64,000 bases of DNA, from IMG/VR virus record IMGVR_UViG_3300021185_001174, positions 1-64,000 of that record. The stretch is one strand, 5' to 3'. Below, one piece after another: positions 29,195-36,176 of the stretch (within the stretch, counting starts at the first letter, position 1; each line of letters begins with the position of its first letter). Under the pieces are notes generated by a model, which was given only the letters and a program-made list of their open reading frames with translations, did no database searches and was not told the DNA's origin. This DNA is from a virus. Both the position numbers and the translations under genes were made by a program.

Positions 29195-29617
29195 TTAGTC
29201 TTTCGGCCAACACTTTTGGTAAAGTTCTGCCTCTAGTTTATAGGCTTCTTTTTCCCATGGAGCATTTTCATATTGATAGTTGCGAGGTTTCTTACCCTTC
29301 CATGACATACTATAACCACATAGTTCGCCACGTAAGTATTGTTTTGCATGAACCATTTCATGAGCAAGAGTTTGCATCATTGATTCGTGTGATAGTTTTT
29401 CTCCTAATGATTTTCGAGCGATGTGTATATCAACATAACCCTCGTTAGTATCACCCCAGCACAAACCTTCAGAGTCTGAATCTAAGGTAGTTTCAAAGTT
29501 AAGTATAATAACCTTGGACCATAATCGATTAATACCCAATTCTCTACAAAGCTTCTTAATGTAGATATCAATCTTTTTCTTTTGGGCCACTTGACCTCTT
29601 AAAACTAAAATTGGCAT
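29195..29617 (-). CDS. SprT-like zinc metallopeptidase
   Basis: A 140-residue protein with the metallopeptidase motif HEMVH at residues 86-90 (H86, E87, H90) inside the helix LAHEMVHAKQYLRG, and a downstream Glu-rich helix (WEKEAYKLEAEL) that would supply a third ligand. It has the size and order of the SprT domain (compare eukaryotic Spartan, which cuts DNA-protein crosslinks), without the C-terminal zinc ribbon. Cytoplasmic; expressed alone from an early promoter. The target is unknown. Confidence 0.75.
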   Translation of the reverse strand: MPILVLRGQVAQKKKIDIYIKKLCRELGINRLWSKVIILNFETTLDSDSEGLCWGDTNEGYVDIHIARKSLGEKLSHESMMQTLAHEMVHAKQYLRGELCGYSMSWKGKKPRNYQYENAPWEKEAYKLEAELYQKCWPKD

Positions 29618-29711: not shown

Positions 29712-31556
29712 CTATAACTTAGGAGAATAAATGGTTATAAGTTCTTCCTTACCCTTTACGTTAATACTACCTATTTCTTTGCACTTATACTCTTCTGGCA
29801 ACTGGTCTTTTGTGAATGAGGAGATGATGGTTTTATATTCAAGCAACTCGTGTCTTGCTGCTTTAGCCTCGAGCCTTGCCGCGAGGTTGACTGCGTCTCC
29901 GATGACAGAGTAATCAAACCGAGACTCACTACCCATATTACCAACAATGCAATCGCCAGTATTGACGCCAGTTCCAACATTGATGGCGGGTAAACCCTGC
30001 TCGCTATATCGTCTTCTGAGTTCATCTGTTTTTATCTCTATCTCTATTGCTGATTTGACGGCCAGTTCTGCATGATTGGGACAATCTAATGGGGCGTTCC
30101 AGAAGGCCATAATACAATCGCCCATATACTTATCTATTGTTCCATTATTATTTAGTATAATTTTAGTCATTGCGTCTAAGAATTCATTAATAAGGATGAC
30201 CAAACCCTCTGGGTCGTTCTTGTTTTTATAGTGTTCTGATATAGGAGTAAACCCTACAATGTCCATGAATAGGAAGCTCATCTCTTTTCTCTCACCCCCT
30301 AAAGTTAATAGTGATGGGTCTTTCTGTAACATATAAACCATATCAGGCGAAAGATAAGTTCCAAATTGTTTCTTAATTTGTTGTCTTAACATAAACTGTT
30401 TATAGAAGTTATTAAAACTTGATGAGGTAAAGAGTAGTATAAATAAAACTGCAGGATAACTAACATCTAGGAGAATATACCATTCAGTCCAGGCATAATA
30501 AACGGCGGCTCCATAACCGAACAGCACGACTGAGAAGATTGCAGCACCATAATAAATTGATAGATAGTAGACTGCCAGAACAAGACCAAGAGAACCAAGA
30601 ACCATTAATACTAGTTCGAGCCATGGTGCCCATATCGGACGAGATATCGAATCCTGGTTCACAATCGTTTGCATGGCGGCCGCTTGTAGATGATGTGCCG
30701 ACTTTAAGCCCTGAGGAGTTGGTATCTGAGACGCAAGGCCCTTCGCCGTTAGGCCCACAAGAACAGTACGACCTTGAAGATTCGGTAACTCATTGGACCC
30801 GTAGTTTATTTCCTTAAACTTATAATTAGGATTAATCCATATAGAACCATTAGAGTCAGTTGATAATATAAATGGTCTTAATATAATTTGTTCAATACCA
30901 GTTTCATTTACCTTTATAGTATAGGATTGTTTTTGGCCTATTACTCTTACAGCCTCTAGTGCAAATGATGGATATAACTCTTTATTAATTTGTGATATTA
31001 ATGGGATTCTTCTTACTAGTCCATCAACTTCTGGCATACCATTTACAAGTCCGTGTCCCCACGCTCCCTGTTCTAGTTCTGGTAGATTAGTGATTAGGCC
31101 ATTATATTTTATAGCCCACTCTAGCGGGTCTCCTGTACCGAATATAGCTGAACCCACATAAGGGGCTTTCGATGACTTACCAGAGTTATCTGCATCTTGT
31201 GCAAGTATAATACCATTGTCTTTTATCCATGAAGCAAATACTTCATCACCACCAAATCTATCAACTTCAGGAAACATAATTGTGAAACCAATCATACCTG
31301 CATTTGCATTTCTTAAATCAGAAATCATCTGTGCATATGTTGACCTAGGGAATGGGTACTGACCTAATTCAGCCAGAGTTTCTTCCGATATGTTTAGTAA
31401 TATTATTTCTTTTGATTCGGTCTCTTCTATAGAACCAATGAATGAATCGAATGTATTTAATCTAAACTGCTGTACTAGTCCTGGGTCCAGAACTCTTAAA
31501 GTTATTAAAAGAATTCCTAGACCTATAGTAGTCCATATGGAAGTTAGGTATTTCAT
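29712..31556 (-). CDS. CHASE2-domain membrane adenylate cyclase
   Basis: A 614-residue protein. An N-terminal membrane helix (about 8-24) precedes a CHASE2 sensor domain outside the membrane (about 28-300: FRLNTFDSFIG, GMIGFTIMFPEVDR, RTVLVGLTAKGL). Three membrane helices follow (about 310-331, 335-356, 360-378), then a class III cyclase domain (about 424-614). Catalytic residues are all present: metal Asp D432 (MDIVGFT) and D480 (KYMGD), adenine-selecting K476 and D554 (VIGDAVNLAARLE), transition-state N557 and R561. So it should make cAMP in response to a periplasmic signal. It ends a cassette with a FecR-domain protein and curli genes; CHASE2 cyclases and FecR proteins are known neighbours in bacteria. 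Gene is intact, a bacterial-type receptor in a lytic phage. Confidence 0.93.
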   Translation of the reverse strand: MKYLTSIWTTIGLGILLITLRVLDPGLVQQFRLNTFDSFIGSIEETESKEIILLNISEETLAELGQYPFPRSTYAQMISDLRNANAGMIGFTIMFPEVDRFGGDEVFASWIKDNGIILAQDADNSGKSSKAPYVGSAIFGTGDPLEWAIKYNGLITNLPELEQGAWGHGLVNGMPEVDGLVRRIPLISQINKELYPSFALEAVRVIGQKQSYTIKVNETGIEQIILRPFILSTDSNGSIWINPNYKFKEINYGSNELPNLQGRTVLVGLTAKGLASQIPTPQGLKSAHHLQAAAMQTIVNQDSISRPIWAPWLELVLMVLGSLGLVLAVYYLSIYYGAAIFSVVLFGYGAAVYYAWTEWYILLDVSYPAVLFILLFTSSSFNNFYKQFMLRQQIKKQFGTYLSPDMVYMLQKDPSLLTLGGERKEMSFLFMDIVGFTPISEHYKNKNDPEGLVILINEFLDAMTKIILNNNGTIDKYMGDCIMAFWNAPLDCPNHAELAVKSAIEIEIKTDELRRRYSEQGLPAINVGTGVNTGDCIVGNMGSESRFDYSVIGDAVNLAARLEAKAARHELLEYKTIISSFTKDQLPEEYKCKEIGSINVKGKEELITIYSPKL

Positions 31557-31636
31557 ATGTATATATCTATGTATATTCCACGGCCGCCATTAGGAGTTCC
31601 ATACTTATAACGAAGATATCGGCCATAGTTTTTCAT
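31553..31636 (-). CDS. Bridging 27-residue mini-ORF before the cyclase
   Basis: ATG at 31636 overlaps the curlin stop as TGATG and its stop overlaps the cyclase ATG as ATGA, so it fills the gap exactly. The peptide is Tyr/Gly/Arg-rich (MKNYGRYLRYKYG...). It may serve only to couple cyclase translation to the curlin gene, or be a real micropeptide. Chance openness over 84 bases cannot be excluded. Confidence 0.45.
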   Translation of the reverse strand: MKNYGRYLRYKYGTPNGGRGIYIDIYI

Positions 31637-32397
31637 CAGTCTTGTGTTACAGATACAGCACAACCACCTACTGTAATGCAGTTTTGAGTTAGAGTATATG
31701 TTTGGTTTGTGGTACTCATTTGTTTTAAGATTAAATCTGTTCCGTATAAACCGTCAATTGTTATGTTTGCATTGTGACTTGCATTGTTACCTTTTTGTCG
31801 GACAAATACATCATTATAATCATTATAGATTGTTAGGTTTAAGTTCTTATCACCATCGCTCTGTTGTTTAACCTGAACCTTATTACCATCTCCAGCCAAA
31901 TGTAAATCAAAGCTATGACCTGTAGTAGACCCTTGGTTGGTTTGTTGGACTGCCATATCATTATTATCACCATAAAGAGTAATATCTACCTCATGGCCTC
32001 CTCCTTCATAACCATCAGCCCACCAAGTTAAATCTGTATCAGAATCAAGAGTATTCCATGCAACACCTTGGGCAACTTTCATTTGATTACTAGTACCACT
32101 TACTTCATCAAAGATTATTTTATTAATGCCGTCACTATCATTAACTTGTACTAAATACATTGATAAGCTTGATGCATTAATATATGAACCACTATCTTTC
32201 ATTTCAATTCTATTATTATATCCTATCTGGTCAATACCTAACTGTAAATTATTACCCGACTGCTCGATACTAATAACATTGTCATCGGCATTTGCAATTA
32301 GTGGTAATAAAAGACCGGCCAATATAATAATAGGCCAAAACAGTATACTTATCCATATTAAAGCTTTCATTGAGTATTCTTCTATCTTATCTAGCAT
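31636..32397 (-). CDS. Secreted curlin-like protein 2
   Basis: A 253-residue protein with a signal/membrane segment (about 10-37, LIWISILFWPIIILAGLLLP, ANADD cleavage region). The mature part starts IEQSGNNLQLGIDQIGYNN, a curlin repeat (Q-x-G-x-N-x5-Q type), then more G-D-N/G-D-G-N units (GDNNDMAVQQ, GDGNKVQVKQQ, DVFVRQKGNN) and a C-terminal Cys pair (C-x6-C). CsgA-like subunits form amyloid fibres after export through CsgG. It starts TAAAATG after FecR. Repeats are less regular than in CsgA, so fibre formation is inferred. Confidence 0.8.
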   Translation of the reverse strand: MLDKIEEYSMKALIWISILFWPIIILAGLLLPLIANADDNVISIEQSGNNLQLGIDQIGYNNRIEMKDSGSYINASSLSMYLVQVNDSDGINKIIFDEVSGTSNQMKVAQGVAWNTLDSDTDLTWWADGYEGGGHEVDITLYGDNNDMAVQQTNQGSTTGHSFDLHLAGDGNKVQVKQQSDGDKNLNLTIYNDYNDVFVRQKGNNASHNANITIDGLYGTDLILKQMSTTNQTYTLTQNCITVGGCAVSVTQD

Positions 32398-32398
32398 T

Positions 32399-33511
32399 TT
32401 AATTCACCTGATTTATATATATGAGGATGTCTTCACTATCGTTACCTGTTATTACTCCATTCCATGTTGGTGTAATAGTATCTAGTGTAAAGTTACCACC
32501 CGCCGCTAATTTTATTCTTATAATTCCATTTACGTTTCTATATAGTACTAAACTACCATCTTGCAAAAATACATTATATTGGGATTCATCATTAAATCCT
32601 CTTGCGGCTCCTTTGATATCAAACTCGCCTAATGTATCGAATAAGTCTTTTGAATCTAAAATATCCAATACGTCAATTAAATATTCAACATCCAATTCAT
32701 CTATATCCAATTCAGTAAAATCTAAATCCGTTTCTTCTTCTAGTGCATCTTTCTCTAATTCATCAAACTCTAAAAAGTCTATATCTAAAAAACCTTTATC
32801 ATCATTCTGTTCATCTGCCAATTCTTCCTGAATCTGGTCTTTCACTTCCTGTGGGGGTGAAACGATAAACATATTATCAATGGACGCTGGTGTGATTCCA
32901 TTTATTTTAACTGGCCTTGTTGGTGCGCTATCTAAAGTACTCACCATTGTTGCTTGATAAACTTCGGTTAGAGTTACTACTCCACCTAAATTTTCTACCT
33001 CTATTTCACCCGATGGGTCACCATTCTCATCAGGTAATAATATAATTAAAGACCTTCCTAACTCATCTACTGTTGTGGTAAAGTCCGTACCTCTTATAGC
33101 AATGGATGCCGTAGGGGTAGATATATCAATATTAGCCTTATTAACCAAACCTAATCTACCCGAAGCAAACCTGGCTGTACCCATTGTGAACTTCATTGTC
33201 ATTTTGGAAAGGGATGGGTCAGCATCATAATATACTTCGTCAATTAAGACTTCGGTGTGTTCTTTTAGAGATAACTGAGCCTTATCTAAAAACTCAATTA
33301 ACATCTTACCCTTACCAGTTTCGGCAACGTCATTTAGTTGCACAGGTATATTATTTAATACCTTTATCTCTTCATTATTTCTTAGTATTTGCCCAACACC
33401 TATGGACTCTACAATACTCCCAATATCATCATCCGCAAAGGAATTTGATACCAGAAGTAATGTACTAAGAATCGCCGTTTGTATCTTGCTGATTAATTTG
33501 TATTGTTGCAT
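32399..33511 (-). CDS. FecR-domain periplasmic protein
   Basis: A 370-residue protein with a signal peptide (1-26, ILSTLLLVSNSFA). Residues 30-150 are a FecR domain: GKGKMLIEFLDKAQLSLKEH, then MKFTMGTARFASGRLG and the hallmark IDISTPTASIAIRGTDFT. Residues 225-300 are extremely Asp/Glu-rich with Leu/Phe (FLDIDFLEFDELEKDALEEE type), probably extended, followed by a small beta domain. FecR-type proteins of this secreted kind often accompany CHASE2 cyclases in bacteria and are unlike sigma-regulating FecR. It overlaps the upstream curlin gene by 47 bases. A ligand or partner of the cyclase sensor is plausible. Confidence 0.85.
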   Translation of the reverse strand: MQQYKLISKIQTAILSTLLLVSNSFADDDIGSIVESIGVGQILRNNEEIKVLNNIPVQLNDVAETGKGKMLIEFLDKAQLSLKEHTEVLIDEVYYDADPSLSKMTMKFTMGTARFASGRLGLVNKANIDISTPTASIAIRGTDFTTTVDELGRSLIILLPDENGDPSGEIEVENLGGVVTLTEVYQATMVSTLDSAPTRPVKINGITPASIDNMFIVSPPQEVKDQIQEELADEQNDDKGFLDIDFLEFDELEKDALEEETDLDFTELDIDELDVEYLIDVLDILDSKDLFDTLGEFDIKGAARGFNDESQYNVFLQDGSLVLYRNVNGIIRIKLAAGGNFTLDTITPTWNGVITGNDSEDILIYINQVN

Positions 33512-34205
33512 TGTCTGATGTTATATCTAAATTAATTACTGCATTAGGTGAAACACAAGCAACACCTGCTCCAGTGGCACATGTACCACTAATTTGATTA
33601 ATATCAATATCTGCACTATCGCCAACTAATTCAACGACCATTGATTGAGCTCCATCATTCTGCAATGTATTAATGTTATTACTATCTCCAGTAATATCAA
33701 AAGTCCATGTAGAATCATCTGCTTCAAAGTCTAGGTCGAATATATTAGAGCTACCAATTAAAATTAAATCCGCATCTAATCTTTCAGCACTATATACATA
33801 ACCTTGGTCTAAATCAAATGTATTACTATCTCCAGTAATATCAAAGTTATAATCTGAATCGTCCGAACTACCGACATAGCCGATATTCCAGTCCACCTCG
33901 TTTGAATCTCCCAGTAATGAGAACGTCAAAGAAGATGAATCTAAGTCCAAAGGACCATAAATTAAATTCTGATTTCCGACCATATCAATATCAAATGTTA
34001 ATGATGAACCAACGATAGTCATATCAGAACCAGATGATGAAAAATCATCTAATCCAATTTTGTTACCGTATCCGATTTGGTCAATATATAGAGTTAAAGT
34101 GTCACCACTTTGTTCTATCATAATCTCATTATCATCTGATGCTTGTGCAAAAAGAGAAGGAGTCAACAACAAGCTTAAACTTAAACTAATTAATGTTTTC
34201 TTCAT
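33465..34205 (-). CDS. Secreted curlin-like protein 1
   Basis: A 246-residue, Asp/Ser-rich acidic protein with a signal peptide (1-22, LISLSLSLLLTPSLFAQA). The mature N-terminus (IEQSGDTLTLYIDQIGYGNK) is a curlin repeat nearly identical to that of the second curlin. About eight (G/S)(D/S)S-N-x-F-D-(I/L) units follow (TGDSNTFDLDQG, IGSSNIFDLD, TGDSNNINTLQN), with a late Cys pair (CATGAGVACV). Suited to a beta-stacked secreted fibre. It follows CsgG with a 20-base overlap and leads into FecR. Confidence 0.8.
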   Translation of the reverse strand: MKKTLISLSLSLLLTPSLFAQASDDNEIMIEQSGDTLTLYIDQIGYGNKIGLDDFSSSGSDMTIVGSSLTFDIDMVGNQNLIYGPLDLDSSSLTFSLLGDSNEVDWNIGYVGSSDDSDYNFDITGDSNTFDLDQGYVYSAERLDADLILIGSSNIFDLDFEADDSTWTFDITGDSNNINTLQNDGAQSMVVELVGDSADIDINQISGTCATGAGVACVSPNAVINLDITSDNATIQINQQDTNGDS

Positions 34206-35124
34206 TTTTCTTTTCCTCTATTGAGTGCCTTTCGTTTTTCCCATCATGTTGATGAGGATGTCTATGGCCCTCGGTTAAATTCCAGAACTTACGGTCATGA
34301 CCCTGGTATATTAATTCAAGTACTCCTGCCTCTATGGCTGCTCGTACCGCATATGTCACACTCTCATTATTTCCCACTCCGTCCTCGTATTCAATTAGTT
34401 GTGTACCCTGTTCATAGAACCTGAATACATCACCACTTGAACCATAAGAAAGAACCGACTTCTTACTTTGGACGTTTAATAAAACTTCACCAGTTAAGAC
34501 TGAAACTGCTCTAATTGCAACAGTTACTACATCTTTCCTATACATTCTACTATAACCAATACCAAGTGTCCTTGCGCCTCGACCACCTGTTTCAGTATTT
34601 GTATCATAACCAATAATGCCACCTTCAATAATTATTCCAGCGAATAAAAGTGGACCCAATTCCTTTGCAGTGTTTCCTTGGCTCTTGGCCATGTCTTGTC
34701 TGCCGCTACGGATAATCTGTCTTTCTCTTACTAGATTATCAATACCTTGTCTTTCTGCTACTCTAAACCATGTACCGCCACCTGCAGTCTTAAGAGCATC
34801 TATTAACATTTCAGTACCGCCTTGGGTAACTGCAGTAGAGAATGAAGCTATGTTATCTACTGATTTTCTTTGTCCAGTTAAATCTTTAAATGAATAAACT
34901 GCAACAACTGGTCTATCTTTTGCTGGTGGTAAATTTAATAAATCTACAAATGCAGGTAACTTAACAGCTGTAGGATGGTCAACACATATATACTTACGAG
35001 ACTTAAATTGATTCCATAAGTATGGTTCATCATCAGCACATTTCTGTGGGTCTTTCGACCACTGCGGTATAGAAGCACAACCACTTAAAAATAAAATAGA
35101 TATTAATAAAAGTCTAACCATCAT
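34186..35124 (-). CDS. csgG: CsgG-like outer-membrane export pore lipoprotein
   Basis: A 312-residue protein with a lipoprotein signal (FLSGC, Cys at residue 16 from the ATG at 35124). The CsgG family core is clear: VVAVYSFKDLTGQRK, STAVTQGGTEMLIDALKTAG, WFRVAERQGIDNLVRERQII, LLFAGIIIEGGIIGYDTNTE and a C-terminal YAVRAAIEAGVLELI. CsgG forms a nonameric outer-membrane channel for curlin export. The tail after residue 285 is His-rich (EGHRHPHQHDG), unusual for the family. ATG at 35124 has CAGGAC upstream; it overlaps the CsgF stop. Neighbours CsgF and curlins support the assignment. Confidence 0.9.
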   Translation of the reverse strand: MMVRLLLISILFLSGCASIPQWSKDPQKCADDEPYLWNQFKSRKYICVDHPTAVKLPAFVDLLNLPPAKDRPVVAVYSFKDLTGQRKSVDNIASFSTAVTQGGTEMLIDALKTAGGGTWFRVAERQGIDNLVRERQIIRSGRQDMAKSQGNTAKELGPLLFAGIIIEGGIIGYDTNTETGGRGARTLGIGYSRMYRKDVVTVAIRAVSVLTGEVLLNVQSKKSVLSYGSSGDVFRFYEQGTQLIEYEDGVGNNESVTYAVRAAIEAGVLELIYQGHDRKFWNLTEGHRHPHQHDGKNERHSIEEKKNEENIN

Positions 35125-35608
35125 CTGGGTCCTGACTAAAATTACCAGCACCTACTGGTATTTCTATGATAGTTTCGGAACCATCTTCTGTTATAATTGT
35201 CATTCTTATTACTTCTGAACCATCAGCATTAGTAATAACTTCGTATGTTACTGTAGAACCTTCTAATACAAATGAACCAAATCTAACAGAATCATCATTA
35301 CTAAACATTGATTCTACTAGTTGTTTTGCCATCTGTGCATATATTCTACTCTCTAAGTTCCTAATAAACTTGGCCAATACACTATTATCTTCTTCTCTTT
35401 CTGCGGCTCTTCTTGCGGCTTCTAAAGCATCTTCTATTGCTTTCTTTCTAGTATGTTCAATATTATCTATGGTAAGATAATGGTTACCAGTACCAACTCC
35501 ACTAAAGGATGGATTTTTAAACCCAAATTTTATTTCATCTGCCAATACTGGATATGATACTATAAATAATACCATAAGTAAAAGCACAATATTTCTAATC
35601 TTCATCAT
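35114..35608 (-). CDS. csgF: CsgF-like curli assembly factor
   Basis: A 164-residue protein with a signal peptide (IVLLLMVLFIVSYPVLA) and mature N-terminus DEIKFGFKNPSFSGVGTGN, which matches CsgF (F-x-F-x-N-P-x-F-G-G). In E. coli this N-terminal region plugs into the CsgG pore to form its second constriction. A charged helix (60-85) and C-terminal beta repeats follow. Start placed at the ATG at 35608 giving a normal signal peptide; an upstream ATG at 35626 adds MRRKKI. CsgE and CsgC-like genes are not seen nearby. Confidence 0.85.
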   Translation of the reverse strand: MMKIRNIVLLLMVLFIVSYPVLADEIKFGFKNPSFSGVGTGNHYLTIDNIEHTRKKAIEDALEAARRAAEREEDNSVLAKFIRNLESRIYAQMAKQLVESMFSNDDSVRFGSFVLEGSTVTYEVITNADGSEVIRMTIITEDGSETIIEIPVGAGNFSQDPDDG

Positions 35609-35867
35609 TATTTTCTTTCGCCTCATTAATAACTTGTTGTCTAGCTCTATATTCTAAAACTACATCAACTTTTTGTTGTAACCTAATTAAATCTTGGTCC
35701 AACATTCTTGTCTGGTCTATAACTCTTATAAGAGCTATATGCATTTCATCTAACTTTGGTTCTATATGTGTATTAATAAATGACCAAACATAGTAAATAA
35801 AATAACCCATCCCAACTGCCATCACAACAGGGAAACCATATTCAGATATTAACTGAGCAATATCCAT
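35595..35867 (-). CDS. Small membrane-anchored coiled-coil protein B
   Basis: A 90-residue protein: N-terminal membrane helix (residues 11-30, FPVVMAVGMGYFIYYVWSFI) and a C-terminal coiled coil (LIRLQQKVDVVLEY) facing the other side. Start overlaps the previous stop (TAATG). Sister of the 98-residue gene just upstream; both could be a holin-type pair or inner-membrane parts of the curli cassette. Function unknown. Confidence 0.65.
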   Translation of the reverse strand: MDIAQLISEYGFPVVMAVGMGYFIYYVWSFINTHIEPKLDEMHIALIRVIDQTRMLDQDLIRLQQKVDVVLEYRARQQVINEAKENNDED

Positions 35868-36163
35868 TAGTCTCTCCTAGTATCTAGCTTTCCATCTTCT
35901 ATAAAGTTTTCTGCCCTAGCTATTCTAGTAGTATCTGGTCTTAAATCTAACGCTGACGATACCAATAAATCTATTTTAATCATTTCATTACTCATTGTTC
36001 TACATCTATTCTCCAATGAATTAGCAAATATTGTTAGTGTAGTAATCTTATCTACTATACCTTCCATTATTTGTTTTATTACAATAAAGATAAATACTCC
36101 CATTACAAGAGAGCCTGCAATAGGTGCACCAACGTCCGCAATAAGTTTAAATACGTCTTCCAT
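35867..36163 (-). CDS. Small membrane-anchored coiled-coil protein A
   Basis: A 98-residue protein: membrane helix at about 12-32 (GAPIAGSLVMGVFIFIVIKQ), then a helical segment with heptads and a basic end. First gene of the cassette leading to csgF/csgG; a TATAAATA box ends 5 bases before its ATG. Same layout as the next gene, likely an old duplication. A holin or export-related role is possible. Confidence 0.65.
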   Translation of the reverse strand: MEDVFKLIADVGAPIAGSLVMGVFIFIVIKQIMEGIVDKITTLTIFANSLENRCRTMSNEMIKIDLLVSSALDLRPDTTRIARAENFIEDGKLDTRRD

Positions 36164-36168
36164 GTATC

Positions 36169-36176
36169 TATTTATA
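36169..36176 (-). promoter_or_regulatory. Late promoter of the curli/cyclase cassette
   Basis: Minus-strand CTTATAAATA ending 5 bases before the ATG at 36163. It is the only recognisable promoter upstream of the 36163-29712 gene run, which is otherwise overlapping. Suggests late expression. Confidence 0.55.

Follow-up and report, generated by a model that had tools for sequence, protein, structure and literature searches.

The closest systems to the locus analysed here have been described in phage Melnitz and in pelagiphages, which infect the abundant marine bacterium Pelagibacter. CsgF and CsgG were reported in pelagimyophages by Zaragoza-Solas et al. (2020; PMC7029224), Buchholz et al. (2022; PMC9004378) considered for Melnitz a role as a pore, and a full type VIII secretion (T8SS) cluster that includes FecR and an adenylate cyclase was described in pelagiphages by Wittmers et al. 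(2022; PMC9599517). Since the available text of the last paper describes the full cluster with FecR and the adenylate cyclase, the phage curli/FecR/cyclase arrangement has been known since 2022, and the present locus is not a first of its kind. The signalling half of the phage curli cluster is, as far as I have found, unstudied: term searches returned the word CHASE2 in the searchable text of neither PMC9599517 nor PMC7029224, and the word cyclase nowhere in that of PMC9004378. The CHASE2 type of the cyclase is an addition of the present analysis. The late promoter, the substrate-residue argument and the non-kinase nature of the leading genes also come from this analysis, and no priority is claimed for them, the papers having been searched by term.

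The DNA analysed here (the window) is a stretch of 64,000 nucleotides that forms positions 1 to 64,000 of a 120,810-base virus sequence (IMG/VR IMGVR_UViG_3300021185_001174). The original prediction of a complete CHASE2-cyclase frame in this DNA is borne out: an open reading frame lies exactly at 29712-31556 on the minus strand, begins with an ATG at 31556 and encodes, with no internal stop, a 614-residue CHASE2-3TM-class III adenylate cyclase (P0001), as judged from the frame itself, the Pfam results and the match to phage HTVC008M. Two Pfam matches, both well above the curated cut-offs, delimit the CHASE2 sensor domain (PF05226, E = 2.5e-36; residues 16-324, positions 30585-31511) and the class III cyclase domain (PF00211 Guanylate_cyc, E = 3.8e-19; residues 424-608, positions 29733-30287), the latter assignment resting in addition on residue conservation and on the profile match to the PDB structures of CyaB and Cya2. 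A Kyte-Doolittle scan places one membrane helix at the N-terminus (residues about 4-29, positions 31470-31547) and about three between the CHASE2 and cyclase domains (residues 307-381, positions 30414-30638). With the helices placed by hydropathy alone, the order is that of a CHASE2 receptor, namely N-terminal helix, CHASE2, three helices and output domain. The sensor and three membrane helices had been announced as complete; CHASE2 is indeed whole and about three helices follow it, but the extra N-terminal helix makes the layout 1+3, which is the usual one for CHASE2 proteins. The term cAMP receptor, which had been applied to this protein, is a misnomer, as cAMP would be the product of the protein and not its ligand, the signal being sensed on the outer side of the membrane.

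The cyclase protein is under purifying selection. Relative to its two nearest relatives, the 93-94% identical L013 and L025, dN/dS over the 614 residues is about 0.13 and about 0.10, respectively, and dN in the cyclase domain is 0 in both comparisons. Since there are at least 600 related stretches, since L013 and L025 are 93-94% identical and since dN/dS is about 0.1, a frame error is excluded, and the check for a sequence error that the original prediction had called for turned up none. The Pfam domains, together with the relatives and the dN/dS value, likewise rule out a chance open reading frame.

Aligned to CyaB and Cya2, the protein displays the two metal-binding aspartates and the Asn/Arg transition-state pair that define class III cyclases; both reference proteins (PDB 3r5g and 2w01) are among the nearest in a PDB profile search, Cya2 matching with E = 2e-46. 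The canonical residues are the metal-binding D432 and D480, the purine-specifying K476, and the transition-state pair N557 and R561. All six residues that had been proposed as catalytic are present at the predicted numbers, but one of them, D554, is conserved in the family without being catalytic, because the aligned residue in the solved structures is R in CyaB and A in Cya2. D432, K476, D480 and R561 are kept in 87/87 phage-type sequences covering this part of the protein and in 72/72 bacterial ones, while N557 is kept in 86/87 phage-type and in all 72 bacterial (alphaproteobacterial) sequences. The sole departure among the phages is the Melnitz cyclase (L086, 11932-13983), which has D550 and an S in place of the transition-state residue N557, and which is the only full-length phage cyclase seen with altered active-site positions. 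In the present protein, S550 occupies the second base-contact position, where Ser or Thr is typical of class IIIb, the class to which the cyclase is assigned.

Guanylate cyclases carry Glu at the purine-specifying position, and cyclases of the adenylate type carry Lys. The lysine is found here as K476 and in all 87 phage-type sequences that have this column, and it aligns with the base-specifying Glu of Cya2. ATP is the predicted substrate, because K476 stands where the guanylate cyclase Cya2 has Glu and because the single change E488K turns Cya2 into an adenylate cyclase (PMC5995499). Judged by its residues, the cyclase looks catalytically competent and ATP-specific. It is very likely, with high confidence, to form a homodimer in the host inner membrane, with CHASE2 facing the periplasm, and to make cAMP from ATP by virtue of K476.

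The window also encodes a ribonucleotide reductase, a single-strand binding protein of the gp32 type and, for a T4-like baseplate, wedge and hub proteins; a search of the phage record for an integrase found none. With T4-like genes in the same record, no integrase found there and the catalytic residues kept, the proposal that a phage, here a marine T4-like one, encodes a full CHASE2-adenylate cyclase is supported. Two other origins were considered and rejected: a prophage or temperate element, given the negative integrase search, and a bacterial contaminant contig, given that T4-like genes flank the region on both sides and that the same cluster occurs in isolates. The phage record also carries a tRNA-Ala(tgc) (L002, 1806-1881) and a tRNA-Arg(tct) (L003, 4778-4854); in a host search, the best matches of the tRNA-Arg (84-94%) were scattered over many alphaproteobacteria with genomes of every size and were uninformative. 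Directly downstream of the cyclase, a small protein encoded on the minus strand (29195-29617) gives weak SprT-like and metallopeptidase matches that fall under the Pfam cut-offs.

The main clue to the function of the cyclase is the CsgF-CsgG-curlin-FecR-curlin cluster in which it lies, and which the original prediction had overlooked. The cyclase is the final gene of this cluster, all of which is on the minus strand. The cluster opens with two genes for small single-helix membrane proteins, both matching PHROG 18771, of 98 residues (35867-36163) and 90 residues (35595-35867), the latter with a weak holin-like match. These are followed by CsgF (35114-35626; PF10614, E = 1.2e-12) and by the outer-membrane curli export channel CsgG (34186-35151; PF03783, E = 5e-54), in which a lipobox-like LSGC is discernible by eye. 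Then come a first curlin-repeat protein (CsgA/B-like, 246 residues, 33465-34205; PF07012, E = 0.0016, and NCBIfam CsgA, E = 1.7e-4, both under cut-off), a FecR-domain protein of 370 residues (32399-33511; PF04773, E = 7e-7) and a second curlin-repeat protein (CsgA/B-like, 253 residues, 31636-32397; PF07012, E = 0.0017, under the curated cut-off), both curlin genes being conserved in position. The FecR protein and the first curlin have, again by eye, signal-peptide-like N-termini. The single-strand order CsgF-CsgG-curlin-FecR-(curlin)-AC of the published cluster (PMC9599517) is thus the order found here. The Pfam matches of the cluster genes include neither CsgD nor CsgE, and the phage clusters of PMC9599517 are, in its available text, likewise without them.

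The histidine kinase that leads the published cluster (PMC9599517) does not appear here: Pfam finds no kinase domain in either of the leading genes (90-98 residues, window positions 35595-36163). Because the same small genes head the clusters of HTVC008M and Melnitz, the histidine kinase label, as it stands in the available text of that paper, is probably wrong, rather than the present cluster being divergent. Small leading genes also lie at 6860-7422 in L085 and at 7225-7863 in L086.

A T4-type late promoter sequence, TATAAATA, is located on the minus strand at 36169-36176 and ends 5 bases ahead of the start codon of the leading gene. The motif [N]ATAAATA occurs between -120 and +30 of the first gene in 34/47 phage loci, most commonly at -13, against a background of 0.017 expected per 150 nt as estimated from the cluster bodies; it is missing at the expected place in 13/47. 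Its position, together with T4 biology, suggests that the motif acts as a promoter in the present phage, and the curli/cyclase cluster is predicted to be expressed late in infection.

Such a cyclase had been considered very unusual for a phage, a view that does not withstand the survey of relatives, as the cyclase is widespread in marine phages. One scan of IMG/VR returned at least 600 stretches related to the cyclase, 80 loci being retained from it; in the annotated phage collection, HTVC008M and four Melnitz isolates carry the cyclase, each within the same cluster; and the cluster itself was published in 2022 (PMC9599517). All 44 IMG/VR loci that extend more than 5 kb upstream of the cyclase carry curlin, CsgF, CsgG and FecR as well as the small proteins. 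As these 44 loci had been selected by their cyclase, a reverse search from CsgG was also made, and FecR and the cyclase are present in all 22 of its loci that extend 4 kb or more downstream; the two sets share some loci, and the CsgG search was limited in reach to close relatives of CsgG. In most phage loci FecR and the cyclase are separated by a curlin gene; L079, L081, L082 and L083 have no second curlin, and there the FecR and cyclase genes overlap by 4 nt. In one phage locus (L055, 7795-8954), FecR is broken into two reading frames. The Melnitz record annotates two curlin-associated repeat proteins (L086, 9122-9841 and 10900-11916), both of which match curlin profiles; Melnitz is stated to be without csgA and csgB in the available text of PMC9004378.

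Among bacteria, the relatives closest to the protein are CHASE2 cyclases of alphaproteobacteria, with 31-37% identity. In a tree, a branch with full support separates the bacterial cyclases from the phage cyclases, with which those of five contigs from unrelated bacterial MAGs group; the published tree, as available, agrees in placing phage cyclases beside alphaproteobacterial ones (PMC9599517). Contigs L087-L091, binned as Flavobacteriaceae, Saprospirales, Sphingobacteriales, Synechococcus and Caulobacteraceae, carry phage-type cyclases that group with those of phages in the tree, and L088, L089 and L090 also carry CsgF/CsgG/FecR; L087, L088, L090 and L091 (and L089) are probably mis-binned phage DNA.

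Of the bacterial relatives, 44 extend more than 5 kb upstream, and none of these has CsgG or CsgF. In 10/52 bacterial relatives the cyclase has FecR as its upstream neighbour, and FecR is the one partner common to phages and bacteria; L126, L128, L136, L147 and L160 have the two genes in the same direction, separated by a small gap or overlapping, in some cases by 4 nt. The other 42 of the 52 scanned relatives have an upstream neighbour other than FecR, ABC transporters being as common as FecR. FecR-cyclase adjacency thus also occurs without curli. In Burkholderia and P. aeruginosa, a FecR-domain protein is encoded in the same operon as a CHASE2 histidine kinase (PMC5192318), which, like the action of S. 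meliloti CHASE2 cyclases with NsrA (PMC13001267), is a precedent for coupling a CHASE2 receptor to periplasmic or outer-membrane parts. The exported FecR protein is proposed, with moderate confidence, to be the periplasmic partner of the cyclase.

The model that best accommodates these data, and which I regard as reasonably probable, is that the phage encodes a FecR/CHASE2-adenylate cyclase sensory pair within a late phage curli (type VIII) secretion cluster. The CHASE2 cyclase would reside in the host inner membrane with its sensor in the periplasm and would make cAMP from ATP, the exported FecR protein assisting CHASE2 as its periplasmic partner. CHASE2/FecR might then sense the phage curli export machinery, responding either to the curlin load or to how the CsgG/CsgF channel stands; cAMP would accordingly go up when the curli module runs, late in infection, and via host cAMP-binding proteins could tune the physiology of the host at that stage, including its surface, its aggregation and the timing of lysis. 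Against the model stand the curlin gene between FecR and the cyclase in most phage loci, the other upstream neighbours of most bacterial relatives, the 13 loci in which the late motif is missing at the expected place, and the fact that no cNMP-binding domain was found in the 120.8-kb phage record. That CHASE2/FecR reads channel or curlin load and that the resulting rise in cAMP tunes late host physiology is put forward tentatively, with low confidence. It is doubtful that the system amounts to a periplasm-to-cytoplasm feedback circuit of a lytic phage, in which CHASE2-cyclase/FecR would gauge curlin export via CsgG and cAMP would time late events, such as lysis, aggregation and the display of fibres, in a curli-less host.

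The cAMP produced could also act independently of curli, through a host CRP-type regulator, and redirect global host transcription, which was the main proposal of the original prediction. The intact catalytic residues are compatible with this, as are the cNMP-binding proteins present in 91/114 sampled alphaproteobacteria, but the remaining 23/114 genomes, mostly small, have no cNMP-binding match, and transcriptional regulators are scarce in SAR11 (PMC13198564). A literature search found no statement on CRP in Pelagibacter. The absolute linkage of the cyclase to the curli/FecR cluster and the late-type motif also argue against a general early takeover, and reprogramming through CRP is therefore unlikely.

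The cluster might instead be a lysis-timing or pore device, in which CsgG/CsgF would form a gated outer-membrane pore while the cyclase and the two small helix proteins would report or trigger membrane breakdown. The late promoter motif at the cluster head and the weak holin-family match of one small leading protein (E = 1.3e-4) fit such a device, but no cyclase is known to serve as a component of lysis. The proposal extends the pinholin idea of PMC9004378, where a pore role was proposed for Melnitz. The argument in the available text of that paper was drawn from missing curlin genes, yet they are annotated in the Melnitz record and 44/44 complete loci carry curlin. A lysis device is quite improbable. 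Anti-phage or anti-defence signalling by a Pycsar-like product or a decoy cyclic nucleotide, also raised in the original prediction, is very improbable, for although the catalytic domain scores against Pycsar-cyclase models of PADLOC (best E = 7e-24), the PycC models represent class III cyclases generally and match via the common cyclase domain only, Pycsar effector models match 0/7 upstream cluster proteins, the neighbourhood gives no support, and the CHASE2 layout, the adenylate-cyclase lysine and the curli-cluster setting all point elsewhere.

If the model of a FecR/CHASE2-cyclase sensory pair within a late curli cluster is true, phages that are among the most common in the ocean bring a complete signal-producing receptor and a secretion channel into the cell together, and an infected streamlined cell acquires a surface fibre and a second-messenger input that it previously lacked. 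Two isolated pairs, HTVC008M/Pelagibacter and Melnitz/OM43, allow direct testing, and the residue differences of the Melnitz enzyme offer a natural comparison for cyclase activity.

Among known systems, the pelagiphage T8SS cluster (PMC9599517) has, in its available text, the same order as the present one (small gene(s), CsgF, CsgG, CsgA/B, FecR, CsgA/B, AC), but its leading genes are named histidine kinases whereas those found here encode 90-98-residue single-helix proteins with no kinase domain. HTVC008M, a Candidatus Pelagibacter ubique phage of a different species, has the same cluster and a cyclase (AGE60353.1) that is 44% identical over 96% and annotated just as an adenylate/guanylyl cyclase. 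Melnitz, an OM43 Methylophilales phage, also has the same cluster, but its cyclase is 34% identical and differs by D550 and by S in place of N557. The Sinorhizobium meliloti cyclases CyaD1, CyaD2 and CyaK are CHASE2-adenylate cyclases like the present protein, which act with the outer-membrane barrel NsrA and feed the CRP-family regulator Clr (PMC13001267); they are bacterial, belong to symbiosis signalling with no curli described, and are likened to the phage protein by architecture. Synechocystis Cya2 (PDB 2w01), finally, is a CHASE2-regulated class III cyclase with a strong profile match to the phage protein, but it makes cGMP because Glu replaces Lys at the base-specifying position, where the phage protein has K476.
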